Shown here piece after piece: positions 476 through 61,822 of a stretch of 64,000 bases of DNA. The notes beneath the pieces are model-generated. The model was not told the origin of the DNA, did not search any database, and saw only the letters and a program-made list of their open reading frames with translations. Position 1 is the first letter of the stretch; each line of letters begins with the position of its first letter. Source of the DNA: an uncultured Siphonobacter sp. (lineage in GTDB: Bacteria; Bacteroidota; Bacteroidia; Cytophagales; Spirosomataceae); contig CAJYIW010000024.1 in NCBI GenBank assembly GCA_913775095.1, forward strand, positions 310,001 through 374,000. The letters run 5' to 3'. The position numbers and the translations under genes were made by a program.

Positions 476-787
476 AAAGATCTGTTAACGCTTGGACTGA
501 CCATCACACTTTACACGGAACCTCTGATGTAGAGAACCCTAATGATTGATATAGAAACAGGGTTCAGGGCTGACCAGATGATTATTTTCGAAGAACAGAA
601 CAACCCCAGGGCTTTCGGATTCAGCCCGCTGGAAGGAAAAAATTACGCTGATAAGAGTATTCATGACTCCGCTAGTGATTGAATGGGGAGCCTTTCGCAG
701 AAAAGTGAATAGAAGTCGTGCCGGATGAAACATCCAGTCGATCGAAATTCATTCACGGCTTTTCACCCGAAAGCTCGAAACGTATAT
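476..787 (-). other. Leader between riboswitch and cobT; weak 64-codon ORF
   Basis: This gap of about 310 bases separates the riboswitch from the cobT start codon. It holds one minus-strand reading frame at 539-733 (64 codons, starts MFHPARLLF, one short hydrophobic stretch). I recognise no family in it. It could be a leader peptide, a remnant of a cobalt-transport gene, or chance. No clear terminator hairpin followed by a T run is visible, so the switch may act on translation or through a structure I cannot fold by eye. Confidence 0.3.
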
Positions 788-1047
788 CCGTTCAGGCAGG
801 TCTTCTGGCTCGCTTCCTTCCCACCTCCACCTTCCCATACCTGCGTACAGTGGCTTTTGAAGATTGGTTTTGAGTTTGGAGTTTAAGGTTTTGAGTTATT
901 TAGGCTTCCATCTGATTCCTAATAACACTAAACTCAAAACCTCCAACGCTAAACTCATCGAAACTTACAGCTACGGGGATAGCCCCGGATTTGCACCGGT
1001 GTTCCCTTTTCATTCGACGACTAGTTTTGCCGAAACCTGAAACGTGG
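788..1047 (-). promoter_or_regulatory. Cobalamin (AdoCbl) riboswitch
   Basis: On the minus strand the conserved blocks of the cobalamin riboswitch appear in order: GGGAACACCGGTG (complement of 995-1007), GGTGCAAATCCGGGGC (982-997), GTAGCTGTAAG (964-974), the CCACTGT...GGGAAG block (832-855) and the B12 box AGCCAGAAGACCTGCC (795-810). Its downstream gene is cobT, as expected for feedback control by adenosylcobalamin. The variable arm between CTGTAA and CCACTG is long (about 105 bases, 856-961) and is built from two facing copies of an intergenic repeat that recurs elsewhere in the window. End points are approximate. Confidence 0.95.
866..957. repeat. Facing TTTGAG-type repeat arms inside the riboswitch
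   Basis: Arm 866-898 reads as GGTTTTGAGTTT units and arm 922-957 reads as the complement (AAACTCAAAACC, then CTAAACTC). In both arms GAGTTT and GGTTTTGAGTT are separated by the same 9-base spacer length, so the arms should pair into a stem with a loop of about 25 bases. The same unit family recurs at 1112-1270, 1891-2414, 29309-29397, 29684-29802, 58946-59055 and 61635-61742. Confidence 0.7.
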
Positions 1048-1111
1048 GCAAAAGTACAGAAAATACTAATGCTGACCCGGCTTTACACCGAATCAGCATT
1101 AGGTATACCTT

Positions 1112-1270
1112 CGTTTGACTACGTTTGAGGAAGTGAGAAATAGTTTGAAAGGTTTGAGAAGTAAGATAGATGCGTAGGTTCTATCATTTTCAACTACTAT
1201 CAAACCCCGAACGCTAACCTCTTCTAACTACATCAAACAATACTCAAACCATTTCAAACCTCATTACTCG
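1112..1270. repeat. Facing GTTTGA-type repeat arms
   Basis: The 5' arm (about 1112-1161) has GTTTGACTACGTTTGAGG and then two more TTTGA units. The 3' arm (about 1190-1270) has the reverse complements ATCAAAC, CTCAAACC and TTTCAAACC, running a few bases into the stop of the downstream-facing gene. It lies between the small dehydrogenase subunit and the riboswitch and is otherwise non-coding. Confidence 0.6.
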
Positions 1271-1875
1271 TAACTCAGCCCATACTGCTTGAGTACTTCT
1301 TCCGGAACACCCTCCCAGTTGTTGGGCGTGTTACCTACGTAACCCAGGTCTGTGAAACCCATGCGGGTGGTATAGAAGCCCGTCAGGGTCATATCCCGCA
1401 TTTTATTAAAGAACGCAACGCCCTGCGAGAACTGAGGTTTCGCTTGTTCAGGATAGGCGATGTCATCCACAATTTCAATTTGCTGGGCTTTGGTAATCTC
1501 CACAAATTTTTTGCTGAAGCGTTTGCGGCTTTCGTTATCCAGCCAGGCCAGTCCTCCGCGAAGAGGAATCTGATGAACGGGCTGATCTTTCACCATGAAT
1601 TCGATGAAAGCCGGAACGCCCGCCTGCGAAGCACTCCCCGACTTCTCGTCCGCCGGCAGAATAATATCGCAGAGAACGGTCATGGTTTTCAATTCATGGG
1701 GCGTGAAAAACTTCTCCGCCATGAGCTTGGCATCCCGAATGGCTTCGGTCTTCTGTCGTCCACCGGGCACCACCAGCGGCTTTTCGGGCGGAGCCGCTAT
1801 CAGATCCGTAGAAGGAACCGTAGCCATGCCCAACGATCCCAAGGCAATCGATTTAAGTGTATCGCGACGTTTCAT
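1264..1875 (-). CDS. Gluconate 2-dehydrogenase subunit 3 family protein (small subunit of a GMC dehydrogenase)
   Basis: A 203-residue exported protein. It opens with a twin-arginine type leader (MKRRDTLKSIALGSLGMA), then the subunit-3 fold with FTPHELKTMTVLCDIILPADEKSGSASQAGVPAFIEFM (residues about 57-94) and a closing GFYTTRMGFTDLGYVGN segment. In this family the small subunit is needed for export and stability of the flavoprotein large subunit through the Tat route. The large subunit is the GMC gene at 2418-4163, upstream on the same strand, but a four-helix-bundle gene has come between them. No haem-binding CxxCH is present, so electrons must leave by another carrier. Start chosen at the ATG giving the Tat leader. 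Confidence 0.9.
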   Translation of the reverse strand: MKRRDTLKSIALGSLGMATVPSTDLIAAPPEKPLVVPGGRQKTEAIRDAKLMAEKFFTPHELKTMTVLCDIILPADEKSGSASQAGVPAFIEFMVKDQPVHQIPLRGGLAWLDNESRKRFSKKFVEITKAQQIEIVDDIAYPEQAKPQFSQGVAFFNKMRDMTLTGFYTTRMGFTDLGYVGNTPNNWEGVPEEVLKQYGLSYE

Positions 1876-1890
1876 TTTGTTAACGTTTGG

Positions 1891-1917
1891 GGTTTTGTGT
1901 TTAGGGTTTTGAGTCAG
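1891..1917. repeat. Left flanking arm of the four-helix-bundle gene
   Basis: A 27-base TTTAGGG/TTTGAG-type arm between the small-subunit start codon and the stop codon of the four-helix-bundle gene. Its reverse complement matches 22 of 27 bases of the arm at 2388-2414, so in the transcript the two can pair and loop out the gene between them. Confidence 0.75.
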
Positions 1918-1937
1918 TATTCGCCTATGGCTAATAG

Positions 1938-2375
1938 TTACGCATAGTTAACCAAATCTTCTTCCAGGGTTGATGACTTACTAGACGATTGGTATCGACT
2001 TCCTTTGATATTGGATTGATTCAGATACTGCATAAGTTTTCTAATCATTCCTCCAATTTCTTCAGCCTTTTGGTATTGCTCATCGAATAATTCCTGATCT
2101 ACATAGTCACGATCTAAGGCCCGATATAGTTGCGATTTAGATTCTTCCAGAGACCCTTTTGCTATAGCTAAAAAATGGACAAATTCATTTCGATTTCCTC
2201 GCCCAAACCCCTCGGCAATGTTGTCCATAATCGAGTCTGCTGACCTTCGTAACTGACGTCTGTGATCAAAATCATTCGTAAATGGCCCCTCTTTCGTCAA
2301 TTCAAAAACCTGCATGGAAAAGAGCCGGGCTTTTTTCCATACCTGTAAATCTTCAAACCGCTGAATGGTCGCCAT
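1938..2375 (-). CDS. Four-helix-bundle protein (23S rRNA intervening-sequence protein family, TIGR02436)
   Basis: A 145-residue soluble protein with the signature of this family: FEDLQVWKKAR near the N-terminus, RRSADSIMDNIAEGFGRGNRNEFVHFLAIAKGSLEESKSQL in the middle, and an EEIGGMIRKLMQYL helix. Homologues are encoded inside intervening sequences of 23S rRNA genes (for example in Leptospira and Coxiella), are distantly like the Avd protein of diversity-generating retroelements, and also occur as free genes. The cellular role is not established. Here it lies between the large and small subunit genes of a dehydrogenase, same strand, and is bracketed by complementary repeat arms on both sides. 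The C-terminal serine-rich tail (SRYQSSSKSSTLEEDL) is variable in the family. Confidence 0.9.
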   Translation of the reverse strand: MATIQRFEDLQVWKKARLFSMQVFELTKEGPFTNDFDHRRQLRRSADSIMDNIAEGFGRGNRNEFVHFLAIAKGSLEESKSQLYRALDRDYVDQELFDEQYQKAEEIGGMIRKLMQYLNQSNIKGSRYQSSSKSSTLEEDLVNYA

Positions 2376-2387
2376 TGTCTAAACCCA

Positions 2388-2414
2388 TTAACTCAAAACA
2401 CTAAACCCAAAACT
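2388..2414. repeat. Right flanking arm of the four-helix-bundle gene
   Basis: The complementary partner of the arm at 1891-1917. It fills almost all of the 42-base gap between the stop codon of the GMC gene (2418) and the start codon of the four-helix-bundle gene (2375). Confidence 0.75.
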
Positions 2415-2417
2415 CAT

Positions 2418-4163
2418 TTACAGATTTTTCTTCTTCACTTCATCAATGATGTAATCACTCGTTCGCATGGACATGGCCAGGATCGTCCAGGTTACGTTTT
2501 TGTCGCCTTGGGTGACGAATGGAGCGGCGTCTACTACGAACAGGTTCTTCACGTCATGACCCTGCATGAATGAGTTCAGAGCCGATTTTTTGGGATCGTT
2601 GCCCATCCGCACCGTTCCAATTTCGTGGATGATCTTTCCGGGAGCCTCTAATCCGTAGTTTTGTTCTTTTCCGGGTTTGCTGCCCAGAGCGATCCCGCCC
2701 ATTTCATGAATGATCTGCTCGAAGGTATCCTGCATGTGTTTAGCCTGCTTTACCTCGTTTTCTGACCATTTGTAGTGGAAACGAAGCGTCGGAATACCGT
2801 ATTTATCGACGTTATTAGGATCGATTTCGCAATAATTGCTTTCCAGAGGTATGGGTTCGCCACGACCGGCCATGCCGACGTACGCTCCGTAGAAACGACG
2901 CACATCCTCTTTCAGGCGTGAACCATATCCACCGGAGGGCTGTGTTTTTCCATCGCCATAGGCATACTTGCCATTCATGCCCTGAATGCCCATACCGAAA
3001 CCGTAGCTGGGCATTCCCATGCCGCCGCCGTATTCGATGTGATACCCCCGGGGGAAATCCAGTTTTTTATTATCCATCCACCAGGGCGTATACACGTGCA
3101 TACCCCCTACGCCGTCTTCGTTGTAACGTTTGCGGTTCATCAGAGCCGGAACGAACGCTGAGCGACTGGCTCCGGTGGAGTCATTCAGATACTTACCAAT
3201 CACTCCGCTGGAGTTAGCCAGACCATTCGGAAAACGGGCCGACTTGGAATTCAGTAATAAACGGGCCGACTCACAGGCACTGGCCGCTACTACCACAATT
3301 TTGGCCCGAACGGTCCGTTCCTGCAGGGTTGCCGTGTCTACGTACGAGACGCCCGTGCAAAGGCCGGTCTTCTGATCCGTCAATACCTCACGAACCATTG
3401 CTCCGTTGATGAGTCGGGTATTACCCGTTTTGACTGCGGGTTTACAAAGGCAGGAGGAAGAAGAGAAATCGGCGTACGCCTGACAGGCCCGACCACACTG
3501 CGAGCAGTAAAAGCACTGACCGCGTTCGTTGTTGATGGCTTTCGTAAGAATCGCCAGCCGGGAAGGAATCACCGGAATCCCCAGGTTCTTGCCCGCTTTT
3601 TTCAGCATCAACTCGTGCAGACGAGGCTTTGGTGGCGGTAAGAAATGACCATCGGGTTCGTTGCGTAAGCCTTCTTTGGAGCCAAAAATACCGATCAGCT
3701 TATCTACCTTGTCATAGTAAGGAGAGACGTCATCGTAGGTAATCGGCCAGTCGTCACCGATGCCGGTCATGCTTCCGCGACGGAAATCATCGGGACCGAA
3801 ACGAAGGGAAATCCGACCCCAGTGATTGGTACGGCCACCCAGCATCCGGCTTCGGAACCAGTGAAATTCGGTACCGGGAGCTGCCGAGTACGGTTCACCT
3901 TCGAGCTGCCAGCCACCCCAGGCGGCATCAAAGTCACCGAAAGGACGAGTGGTGCTGGCCCCACGGCGGGGCGATTCCCAGGGATTTTTTAACTGCGTAA
4001 TATACTTCGGATCGGCGGGGTCATAGTAGCCTCCGGCTTCCAGTAAGCAAACTTTAGCACCCGCTTTCGATAGCTGGTAAGCCGCCATACCGCCGCCTGC
4101 TCCAGACCCAACGATAACCACGTCAAAGACTTCAGGGGCCTCCTGGATTTGATAACTGTTCAT
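2418..4163 (-). CDS. GMC-family FAD dehydrogenase, large subunit
   Basis: A 581-residue flavoprotein that oxidises a sugar or alcohol hydroxyl. Seen: the FAD Rossmann motif VVIVGSGAGGGMAAYQL (about residues 15-31), the second glycine-rich stretch MLGGRTNHWG (107-116), and the C-terminal GMC region with HEIGTVRMG (His about 513) and GDKNVTWTI (Asn about 556), the expected catalytic pair. A cysteine cluster at C217, C220, C223 and C227, with C238 and C240 close behind, recalls the iron-sulphur site of bacterial FAD-glucose dehydrogenases, although the spacing differs. There is no signal peptide; co-export with the Tat-leader small subunit (1264-1875) is known for the family. The substrate is not readable from the sequence; glucose/glycoside 3-dehydrogenase activity is one possibility. 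Confidence 0.92.
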   Translation of the reverse strand: MNSYQIQEAPEVFDVVIVGSGAGGGMAAYQLSKAGAKVCLLEAGGYYDPADPKYITQLKNPWESPRRGASTTRPFGDFDAAWGGWQLEGEPYSAAPGTEFHWFRSRMLGGRTNHWGRISLRFGPDDFRRGSMTGIGDDWPITYDDVSPYYDKVDKLIGIFGSKEGLRNEPDGHFLPPPKPRLHELMLKKAGKNLGIPVIPSRLAILTKAINNERGQCFYCSQCGRACQAYADFSSSSCLCKPAVKTGNTRLINGAMVREVLTDQKTGLCTGVSYVDTATLQERTVRAKIVVVAASACESARLLLNSKSARFPNGLANSSGVIGKYLNDSTGASRSAFVPALMNRKRYNEDGVGGMHVYTPWWMDNKKLDFPRGYHIEYGGGMGMPSYGFGMGIQGMNGKYAYGDGKTQPSGGYGSRLKEDVRRFYGAYVGMAGRGEPIPLESNYCEIDPNNVDKYGIPTLRFHYKWSENEVKQAKHMQDTFEQIIHEMGGIALGSKPGKEQNYGLEAPGKIIHEIGTVRMGNDPKKSALNSFMQGHDVKNLFVVDAAPFVTQGDKNVTWTILAMSMRTSDYIIDEVKKKNL

Positions 4164-29308: not shown

Positions 29309-29397
29309 AGGTTTGTAAGGATTTGTGTCGTTTGATAAGCAGGATCAGGTAACGTTTCGAAACAAACTTTATCAAACGGCTCAAACCTTTCTAAACT
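29309..29397. repeat. Facing repeat arms in AIM24/small-protein spacer
   Basis: GTCGTTTGATAAG (29327-29339) pairs with CTTTATCAAACGGC (29368-29381), and outer units GGTTTG / CAAACC extend the stem. It fills the gap between the stop of the acidic protein gene and the AIM24 start on the minus strand. Confidence 0.6.
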
Positions 29398-29674: not shown

Positions 29675-29683
29675 GACTTTTAT

Positions 29684-29802
29684 GTTTTGAGTTTTGAGTT
29701 TGAGGTTTTGAGTTTCTGCGAGTCAAAAAAGTGTCTCTTCATGTAGGTTCGGCCTAACTGTTCTTTTCATAACTCTAAACTCAAAACCCAAACCCAAAAC
29801 CC
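29684..29802. repeat. Facing TTTTGAG repeat arms between gltX and the acidic protein gene
   Basis: The arm at 29684-29716 has three TTTTGAGTTT-like units. The arm at 29771-29802 reads the complement (CTCTAAACTC, AAAACCCAAACCCAAAAC) and ends at the gltX stop codon. The gap is otherwise empty. Confidence 0.7.
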
Positions 29803-31299: not shown

Positions 31300-31523
31300 A
31301 AGATTAATTTTGGAGTTGAGCCCGGGATTACGCTGGTTTGTACCCTCGATCCTGTTGCTCAGATTGTCTCTGCTCCATTTGATACCGTAAAGTTACTTCT
31401 TTTACTGTGTTTAGGGTTTAGAGTTTGCCGTTTACTGTCTCCAGTTTTCAGTTCTGGATGAGATTTTTAGATCACAATCGCTTTAGCTCACGCAAAATTT
31501 CGAGTGGAAAGCCTTTTAGTACG

Positions 31524-61634: not shown

Positions 61635-61742
61635 TTGGTTTTGAGTTTGGGGTTCAGGGTTTTGAGTTACTGCTCGAATTCTGATCATGACTCGTTAATT
61701 ATCAGACAACAAACAACTAAAAACCAAAAACTATCAACAATT
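61635..61742. repeat. Repeat arm upstream of the DUF1684 gene
   Basis: At 61635-61668 there are GGTTTTGAGTTTGGGG, GGGTTTTGAG units. At 61706-61742 lies an A/C-rich run (CAACAAACAACTAAAAACC) facing it, a variant of the arm family. The gap lies between divergent genes. Confidence 0.55.
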
Positions 61743-61822
61743 AGCTATTTCCGGGTGCAAATTGCAATGCTTTGGTGTTATCCTGCAAAAATCTACAACT
61801 TAACGGCAAAAGCCAATAAAAT

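Follow-up and report, generated by a model that had tools for sequence, protein, structure and literature searches.

Intervening sequences (IVS) with an S23/IVP open reading frame (ORF) are known from the 23S rRNA genes of Coxiella, Leptospira and other bacteria. The IVS of Coxiella comprises 428 nt, its terminal inverted repeats form a 28-bp stem, tandem heptamers GACAGAT precede the ORF, and the IVS protein has no known function, as stated in the report (PMC4990558). The cassette described here is of similar size and encodes a protein of the same family by name, but it is located between protein genes of an operon and not in an rRNA gene.

Heptameric tandem repeats are also found elsewhere, among them the STRR of cyanobacteria. 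Reported examples are GGGAATC in Xanthomonas, GGGGA(C/T)T in Nostoc and TAACTGA in Beggiatoaceae, which are mostly intergenic (PMC4692102, PMC4679880), and 70 and 75 inverted heptamer pairs were counted in two Xanthomonas genomes (PMC4692102). In the main text of both reports, the IVP gene is not named as 'four helix' or 'S23'. The arms described here, in contrast, flank an IVP gene. An analogy may also be drawn to REP/RAYT and MITE systems, in which the abundance of short, dispersed palindromes varies with a gene of that genome, RAYT in the case of REP. From these, the cassette differs in that its ORF has no transposase match, and in that the word is free and the period fixed.

The trp RNA-binding attenuation protein (TRAP) is a ring of 11 subunits reading NAG triplets at a fixed spacing; its likeness to the IVP protein is a proposed analogy, the folds being different and the TRAP spacing shorter. 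Avd of diversity-generating retroelements is pentameric. It is described as homologous to PF05635 (PMC10053308); here, however, the neighbours of the IVP gene are dehydrogenase subunits. A prior description linking IVP, operon junctions and heptads was not found in searches of open PubMed Central papers.

In this study, we analysed an IVP cassette in the window, i.e. the whole 64,000-nt stretch of DNA under investigation. We consider it fairly probable that this is an IVS-like selfish mobile hairpin cassette of operons and that the encoded protein, of a pentameric family, probably reads its ends one word at a time.

The cassette between the dehydrogenase subunit genes

Profile searches and gene order confirmed that a gene of the TIGR02436 type is located between the large and the small subunit gene, as given in the preliminary description. 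The encoded protein of 145 aa exceeded the family cut-offs of PF05635 (E 2.8e-35; 121.2 vs 33.8 bits) and TIGR02436 (E 6.6e-32; 110 vs 24 bits), and its solved relatives are 2gsc (E 2e-9) and 2rld (E 0.03), each with five chains per entry. This sole ORF of the cassette matched IVP models only in Pfam and NCBIfam (TIGR02436, plus two PRK12275 models below cut-off in the latter), no transposase being found, and nothing in the analysis points to a catalytic activity of the protein. The edges of the cassette (Table 1), which is about 540 nt in size, were inferred by comparison with empty junctions and with cassettes whose words differ. Inspection of the compared junctions by eye showed no target-site duplication, but the sites have diverged so far that a short one could have been missed.

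Table 1. Features of the cassette, its host genes and gene-less hairpins in the window
Feature	Position	Strand	Basis or composition
Cobalamin riboswitch	778-1055	-	Rfam
Gene-less hairpin of TTTTGAG words, inside the cobalamin riboswitch	871..957	.	27-nt arms, 85% complementary
Downstream host gene, gluconate 2-dehydrogenase subunit 3-like small subunit	1264..1875	-	profile search
Whole cassette (inferred edges)	1876..2417	-	GMC stop codon end to just before small-subunit start codon
3' arm on gene strand	1892..1918	-	reverse complement of heptads GTGTTTA GGGTTTT GAGTCAG
IVP gene (23S rRNA-intervening-sequence protein / four helix bundle protein)	1938..2375	-	PF05635, TIGR02436
5' arm on gene strand	2387..2413	-	heptads GAGTTTT GGGTTTA GTGTTTT GAGTTAA
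Upstream host gene, GMC oxidoreductase large subunit	2418..4163	-	profile search
Gene-less heptad hairpin, TTTTGAG words	29678..29802	.	inverted repeat and 7-nt period

The arms at 1891-1917 and 2388-2414, reported earlier to be complementary at 22 of 27 positions, gave the same value on recount, and the shifted pair listed in Table 1 is complementary at 23 of 27. The best 23-mer pairs at 21 of 23 positions, a value reached by none of 2000 dinucleotide shuffles of the flanks (mean 14.3, maximum 19), and a repeat search returned 91% complementarity. With a gapped score of 42.0, the locus fell just short of the 95th percentile (42.4) of mismatched pairs, and 5.9% of those pairs scored at least as high, with the caveat on this control that words of the window arms are common to other loci. 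RNA folding predicted pairing of the two arms in minimum-energy and centroid structure alike, with a z of -2.15 and an equally good fold for 1 shuffle in 100. Looping out or cleavage of the RNA, by which the two subunits would stay together, is made plausible by this prediction.

As in a 23S IVS, complementary termini enclose an ORF, whereas the hosts are GMC subunits, leuC-leuD and Gfo/Idh-like genes in place of an rRNA gene. RNase III excision, a trait of the 23S IVS, is a candidate process for the window cassette. The cassette acts like a 23S IVS outside the rRNA location by which the latter is defined, and by its gene it is no insertion sequence.

Complementary flanks and the period of the arms

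The IVP gene is carried by 137 of 150 genomes of the host's family. At 44 family loci, the mean flank complementarity was 44.7, compared to 26.9 for mismatched pairs, and 24 loci were above the 95th percentile. The cross-phylum set consisted of the best 80 of at least 574 confirmed relatives from a scan of named genomes, including, by record titles, Bacteroidota, Planctomycetota, Poribacteria, Chloroflexi, Acidobacteria, Nitrospirae, Omnitrophica and others. Among the 79 usable loci (one had a short flank), the mean was 40.1 vs 24.1 for mismatched pairs, with 48 above the 95th percentile. Of the cross-phylum IVP loci, 51.9% reached a score of 40, compared to 10.7% of the 252 further ORFs with at least 90 codons from the same loci, spurious ORFs included. 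Below the 95th percentile were 20 of the 44 family and 31 of the 79 cross-phylum loci, the latter including Fibrobacter, Elusimicrobia and an alphaproteobacterium. In some cases, e.g. L001 and L004, the end of the coding sequence contains the 3' arm.

For analysis of the period, arms were cut out by complementarity alone, which 26 of 44 family and 40 of 80 cross-phylum loci passed; arms below the score threshold were left out (18/44, 40/80, and 18/30 in a third set). After removal of near-duplicates, the self-match at lag 7 was 0.602 for 21 family arms (z 13.9) and 0.639 for 38 cross-phylum arms (z 21.4), with 0.307 and 0.304 for shuffles. Lag 14 was as high as lag 7, and the next among lags 3-16 was lag 8 in the family set with z 1.7. 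Also in 100-nt IVP flanks unselected for pairing, the lag-7 self-match was 0.36-0.41, compared to 0.28 at 109 control ORFs. The phase-aligned heptad of 58 arms read N-[A 63, G 20]-[G 89]-N-N-N-[T 58], with an information of 2.86 bits vs 2.27 (sd 0.04, maximum 2.34, n=20) for phase-permuted controls; 30 restarts were used for the data and 8 for the controls, and arms below 18 nt were left out. The third word of the window 5' arm (GTGTTTT) breaks the rule of one NRG triplet per heptad, which the published Coxiella heptamer GACAGAT fits, with CAG once per seven bases. In both arms, five was the commonest word number, at 37 and 28 of 123 loci, and likewise in a second count (23 of 94 and 24 of 83), with a wide spread.

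Arm words showed weak covariation with IVP protein similarity at unrelated sites (r 0.118; 15 of 500 permutations as high) in a test leaving out weak-period arms and 32 pairs with homologous flanks. A genome-wide tie of arm words to the IVP group was unsupported, as in the genus (six genomes) the abundance of the words does not follow the IVP group at the GMC site.

A second gene family that was tested, GxxExxY (TIGR04256), occurred in 73 of 101 genomes. Its flanks were complementary as well (47.0 vs 26.5; 34 of 67 above the 95th percentile, 3 of 70 loci being left out), while its arms (n=27) had a rhythm of 8-10 nt (z 4.0, 4.6, 3.7) and not of 7 (z -1.3). In the window's genome, GxxExxY follows directly behind leuD and an IVP gene is located between leuC and leuD, so that one leu operon contains both kinds. 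Among the loci L256 (G000:C26:175697-176044), L266, L129-L158 and L239-L278, GxxExxY genes were often enclosed by complementary word arms.

Empty, filled and exchanged junctions

The window's genome (5.65 Mb, 27 contigs) contains three IVP genes, at the GMC junction, between leuC and leuD, and between two Gfo/Idh-type oxidoreductase genes, the gene names at the second and third sites being given by eye from translations. Their arm words are TTTTGAG, GTTGTTYGTT and GTTTGATA, respectively; therefore, the three cassettes do not repeat a common end sequence. Further copies with identical arms, for which a search had been suggested, were not found; the copies have period and complementarity in common and differ in spelling, by which sequence-conserved transposon ends were rejected.

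The GMC junction was compared at the 30 loci retrieved by the searches, 6 in the window's genus and 24 in other genera. It was occupied in all six genomes covered of the genus, and the 24 others comprised 4 with IVP, 11 of at most 24 nt, 4 with gene-less hairpins and 4 with other repeats or sequence, the gene-less classes being assigned by eye and the remaining locus (L117) being cut by a contig end. In one other genus, the junction measured 5 nt (G142) and 2 nt (G105) vs 497 nt (G125). The uninterrupted large-small subunit junction looked for in relatives is thereby present. The GMC enzyme has paralogues, so that two of the comparisons are blurred: the cross-genus and the g5 junctions may not be strict orthologues. 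At L119 and L122 of genus g17, several copies of GGTCGCGTAGCGACC-like palindromes, a repeat of another kind, were observed at the same place.

Within the genus, two cassette types occupy the GMC site, with arms of TTTTGAG (G000, G005, G004) or TTTTCAG (G003, G002, G001) words, and each goes with its own IVP group. In the sister pair G002/G004, the flanks are 96% identical, with 60 of 60 and 59 of 60 identical positions at the cassette edges, and the IVP genes 61% identical in DNA. Allelic replacement by homologous recombination between species, the cassette having no mobility of its own, would be one explanation of this exchange, since the site is common to all members of the genus and a donor allele therefore exists. 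We regard it as quite unlikely, as no donor flank is visible in the 60 nt on each side of the cassette, and as it leaves a second site unexplained: the leuC-leuD gap is empty in G002 (28 nt) and G005 (23 nt) and filled in G004 (489 nt) and G000 (481 nt), and in G001 it holds another IVP cassette.

The leuC-leuD gap of G003 (L283) contains 612 nt of other sequence, the end of which perhaps resembles a PIN-domain toxin by eye; small selfish genes may settle preferentially at the junctions of operons. At L004/L279, the stop codon of IVP and the start codon of leuD overlap in ATGA. Compared to the empty sister G002, leuD has lost one codon here, so that the cassette end may supply a new start codon.

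The constant place of the cassette in the genus and the predicted pairing of its arms would also agree with IVP being a normal operon gene and the arms a conserved attenuator or RNase III site setting the subunit stoichiometry. In addition, both neighbours were co-directional with IVP at 36 of 44 family and 55 of 80 cross-phylum loci (both opposed at 6 and 4). Against such a regulatory hairpin, which we consider very unlikely, stand the 11 of 24 corresponding junctions outside the genus with at most 24 nt, the distant cassette swapped in between the near-identical flanks of G002 and G004, host genes that differ among the three copies of the window's genome, and in-frame stops in two IVP copies of the third site (L012, L013). 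The earlier proposal of an IVS-like or mobile cassette was supported in part, by the empty junctions, the exchange as a unit, other copies with the same arm arrangement, and the IVS reported with a stem and heptamers (PMC4990558).

Link of the heptads to the IVP gene

The dN/dS of IVP was 0.087, 0.155 and 0.074 in the three computable pairs of six tried, the last value being from a saturated dS of 2.5 and the first from the window IVP and the G005 gene at the same site. These low values show purifying selection by which the protein is kept working, in contrast to the IVS gene of Coxiella, which is described as decaying.

Heptad runs were surveyed in five 20-kb stretches per genome in 20 genomes (16 first, 4 added later), which were hand-picked for long contigs and are related by descent. 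The 11 genomes with at least two IVP matches contained 36 runs in 1.1 Mb (4, 3, 5, 5, 2, 2, 1, 5, 0, 0 and 9 per genome), compared to 1 run in 0.9 Mb of the 9 genomes with none or one (Mann-Whitney p 0.0009); for the first 16 genomes, the numbers were 27 and 1. Two of the IVP-rich genomes added later, G024 and G052, had no run in 100 kb. The other lags gave, in IVP-rich and IVP-poor genomes, 1/2 (lag 5), 6/5 (lag 6), 11/4 (lag 8), 5/9 (lag 9), 8/2 (lag 10) and 1/1 (lag 11); lags 8 and 10 thus lean toward IVP-rich genomes too, although less than lag 7, and lags 5, 6, 9 and 11 do not. Within one genus, lag-7 runs split into 4, 3, 5, 5 and 0, 0, 0, 0 by IVP content, the four negatives possibly being near kin. 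Because the genomes were hand-picked and the negatives may be near kin, these counts hint strongly at a spread or maintenance of heptad repeats by the IVP protein but do not prove it.

Heptad words occur by the hundreds in the window's genome, as tandem arrays and inverted pairs, and exceed by far its three IVP genes. Heptameric hairpins might therefore be spread by slippage and template switching, with IVP as a passenger often caught between the arms, and heptamers and inverted pairs of Xanthomonas are reported without any named protein (PMC4692102). This explanation seems unlikely to us, as heptad runs are nearly absent without IVP, even within one genus (kinship being uncorrected), as unselected IVP flanks are rich in heptads across phyla and those of control ORFs are not, and as GxxExxY genes have arms too, with another period.

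In the mobile cassette that we favour, a four-helix-bundle gene is enclosed by complementary arms of about 30 nt made of 7-nt words, most often about five, with the form N-R-G-N-N-N-T in the 5' arm. It would enter short junctions of co-directional genes, mostly in sense, where it can be lost or exchanged for another cassette. Pairing of the arms in the transcript would place the stop codon of the upstream gene close to the start codon of the downstream gene, and the stem may be trimmed by a nuclease such as RNase III. The protein would act on the arms, most likely with one NRG triplet per ring subunit in a TRAP-like manner, as we infer from the period, the triplet, the word number and the pentameric relatives, and would move or spread both gene-bearing and gene-less hairpins.

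Pairing ends with a seven-letter rhythm and free spelling point to a little-noticed family of mobile elements. If this reading holds, the IVS of rRNA genes are one branch of a large family of elements in ordinary operons of many phyla. More tentatively, and with doubt prevailing, such elements may be widespread in bacteria and have ends that are defined by their rhythm and not by their sequence: a ring of five subunits would read NRG every 7 nt, leaving the spelling of the arms free given period and self-complementarity, and the protein would spread the cassette and gene-less hairpins and be the unrecognised origin of heptameric repeats and of the 23S IVS, with GxxExxY as the core of a sister class of 8-10 nt. 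Under the favoured reading, the orphan protein would gain a candidate ligand in which NRG recurs about five times at 7-nt intervals, a cause for the heptameric repeats of bacterial genomes would be offered, and the ends would keep their complementarity without conserving sequence.

Gene-less hairpins are present in the window itself (Table 1). The one inside the riboswitch is also found in G003, G002 and G004 with changed letters, and Rfam at gathering thresholds gave the cobalamin riboswitch as the only known RNA family (window; 4 of 20 loci). (TTTTGAG)n arrays were seen within about 130 bases of contig ends in G000 (C3, C7, C14, C16, C20), so that such arrays may break assembly and be undercounted. 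Furthermore, a gene-less inverted repeat of GTTTGA-like words with 28-nt arms (79% complementary) was observed at 29311-29396 of the window, and two more runs with a 7-nt period and weak inverted partners at 31409-31453 and 61703-61749.
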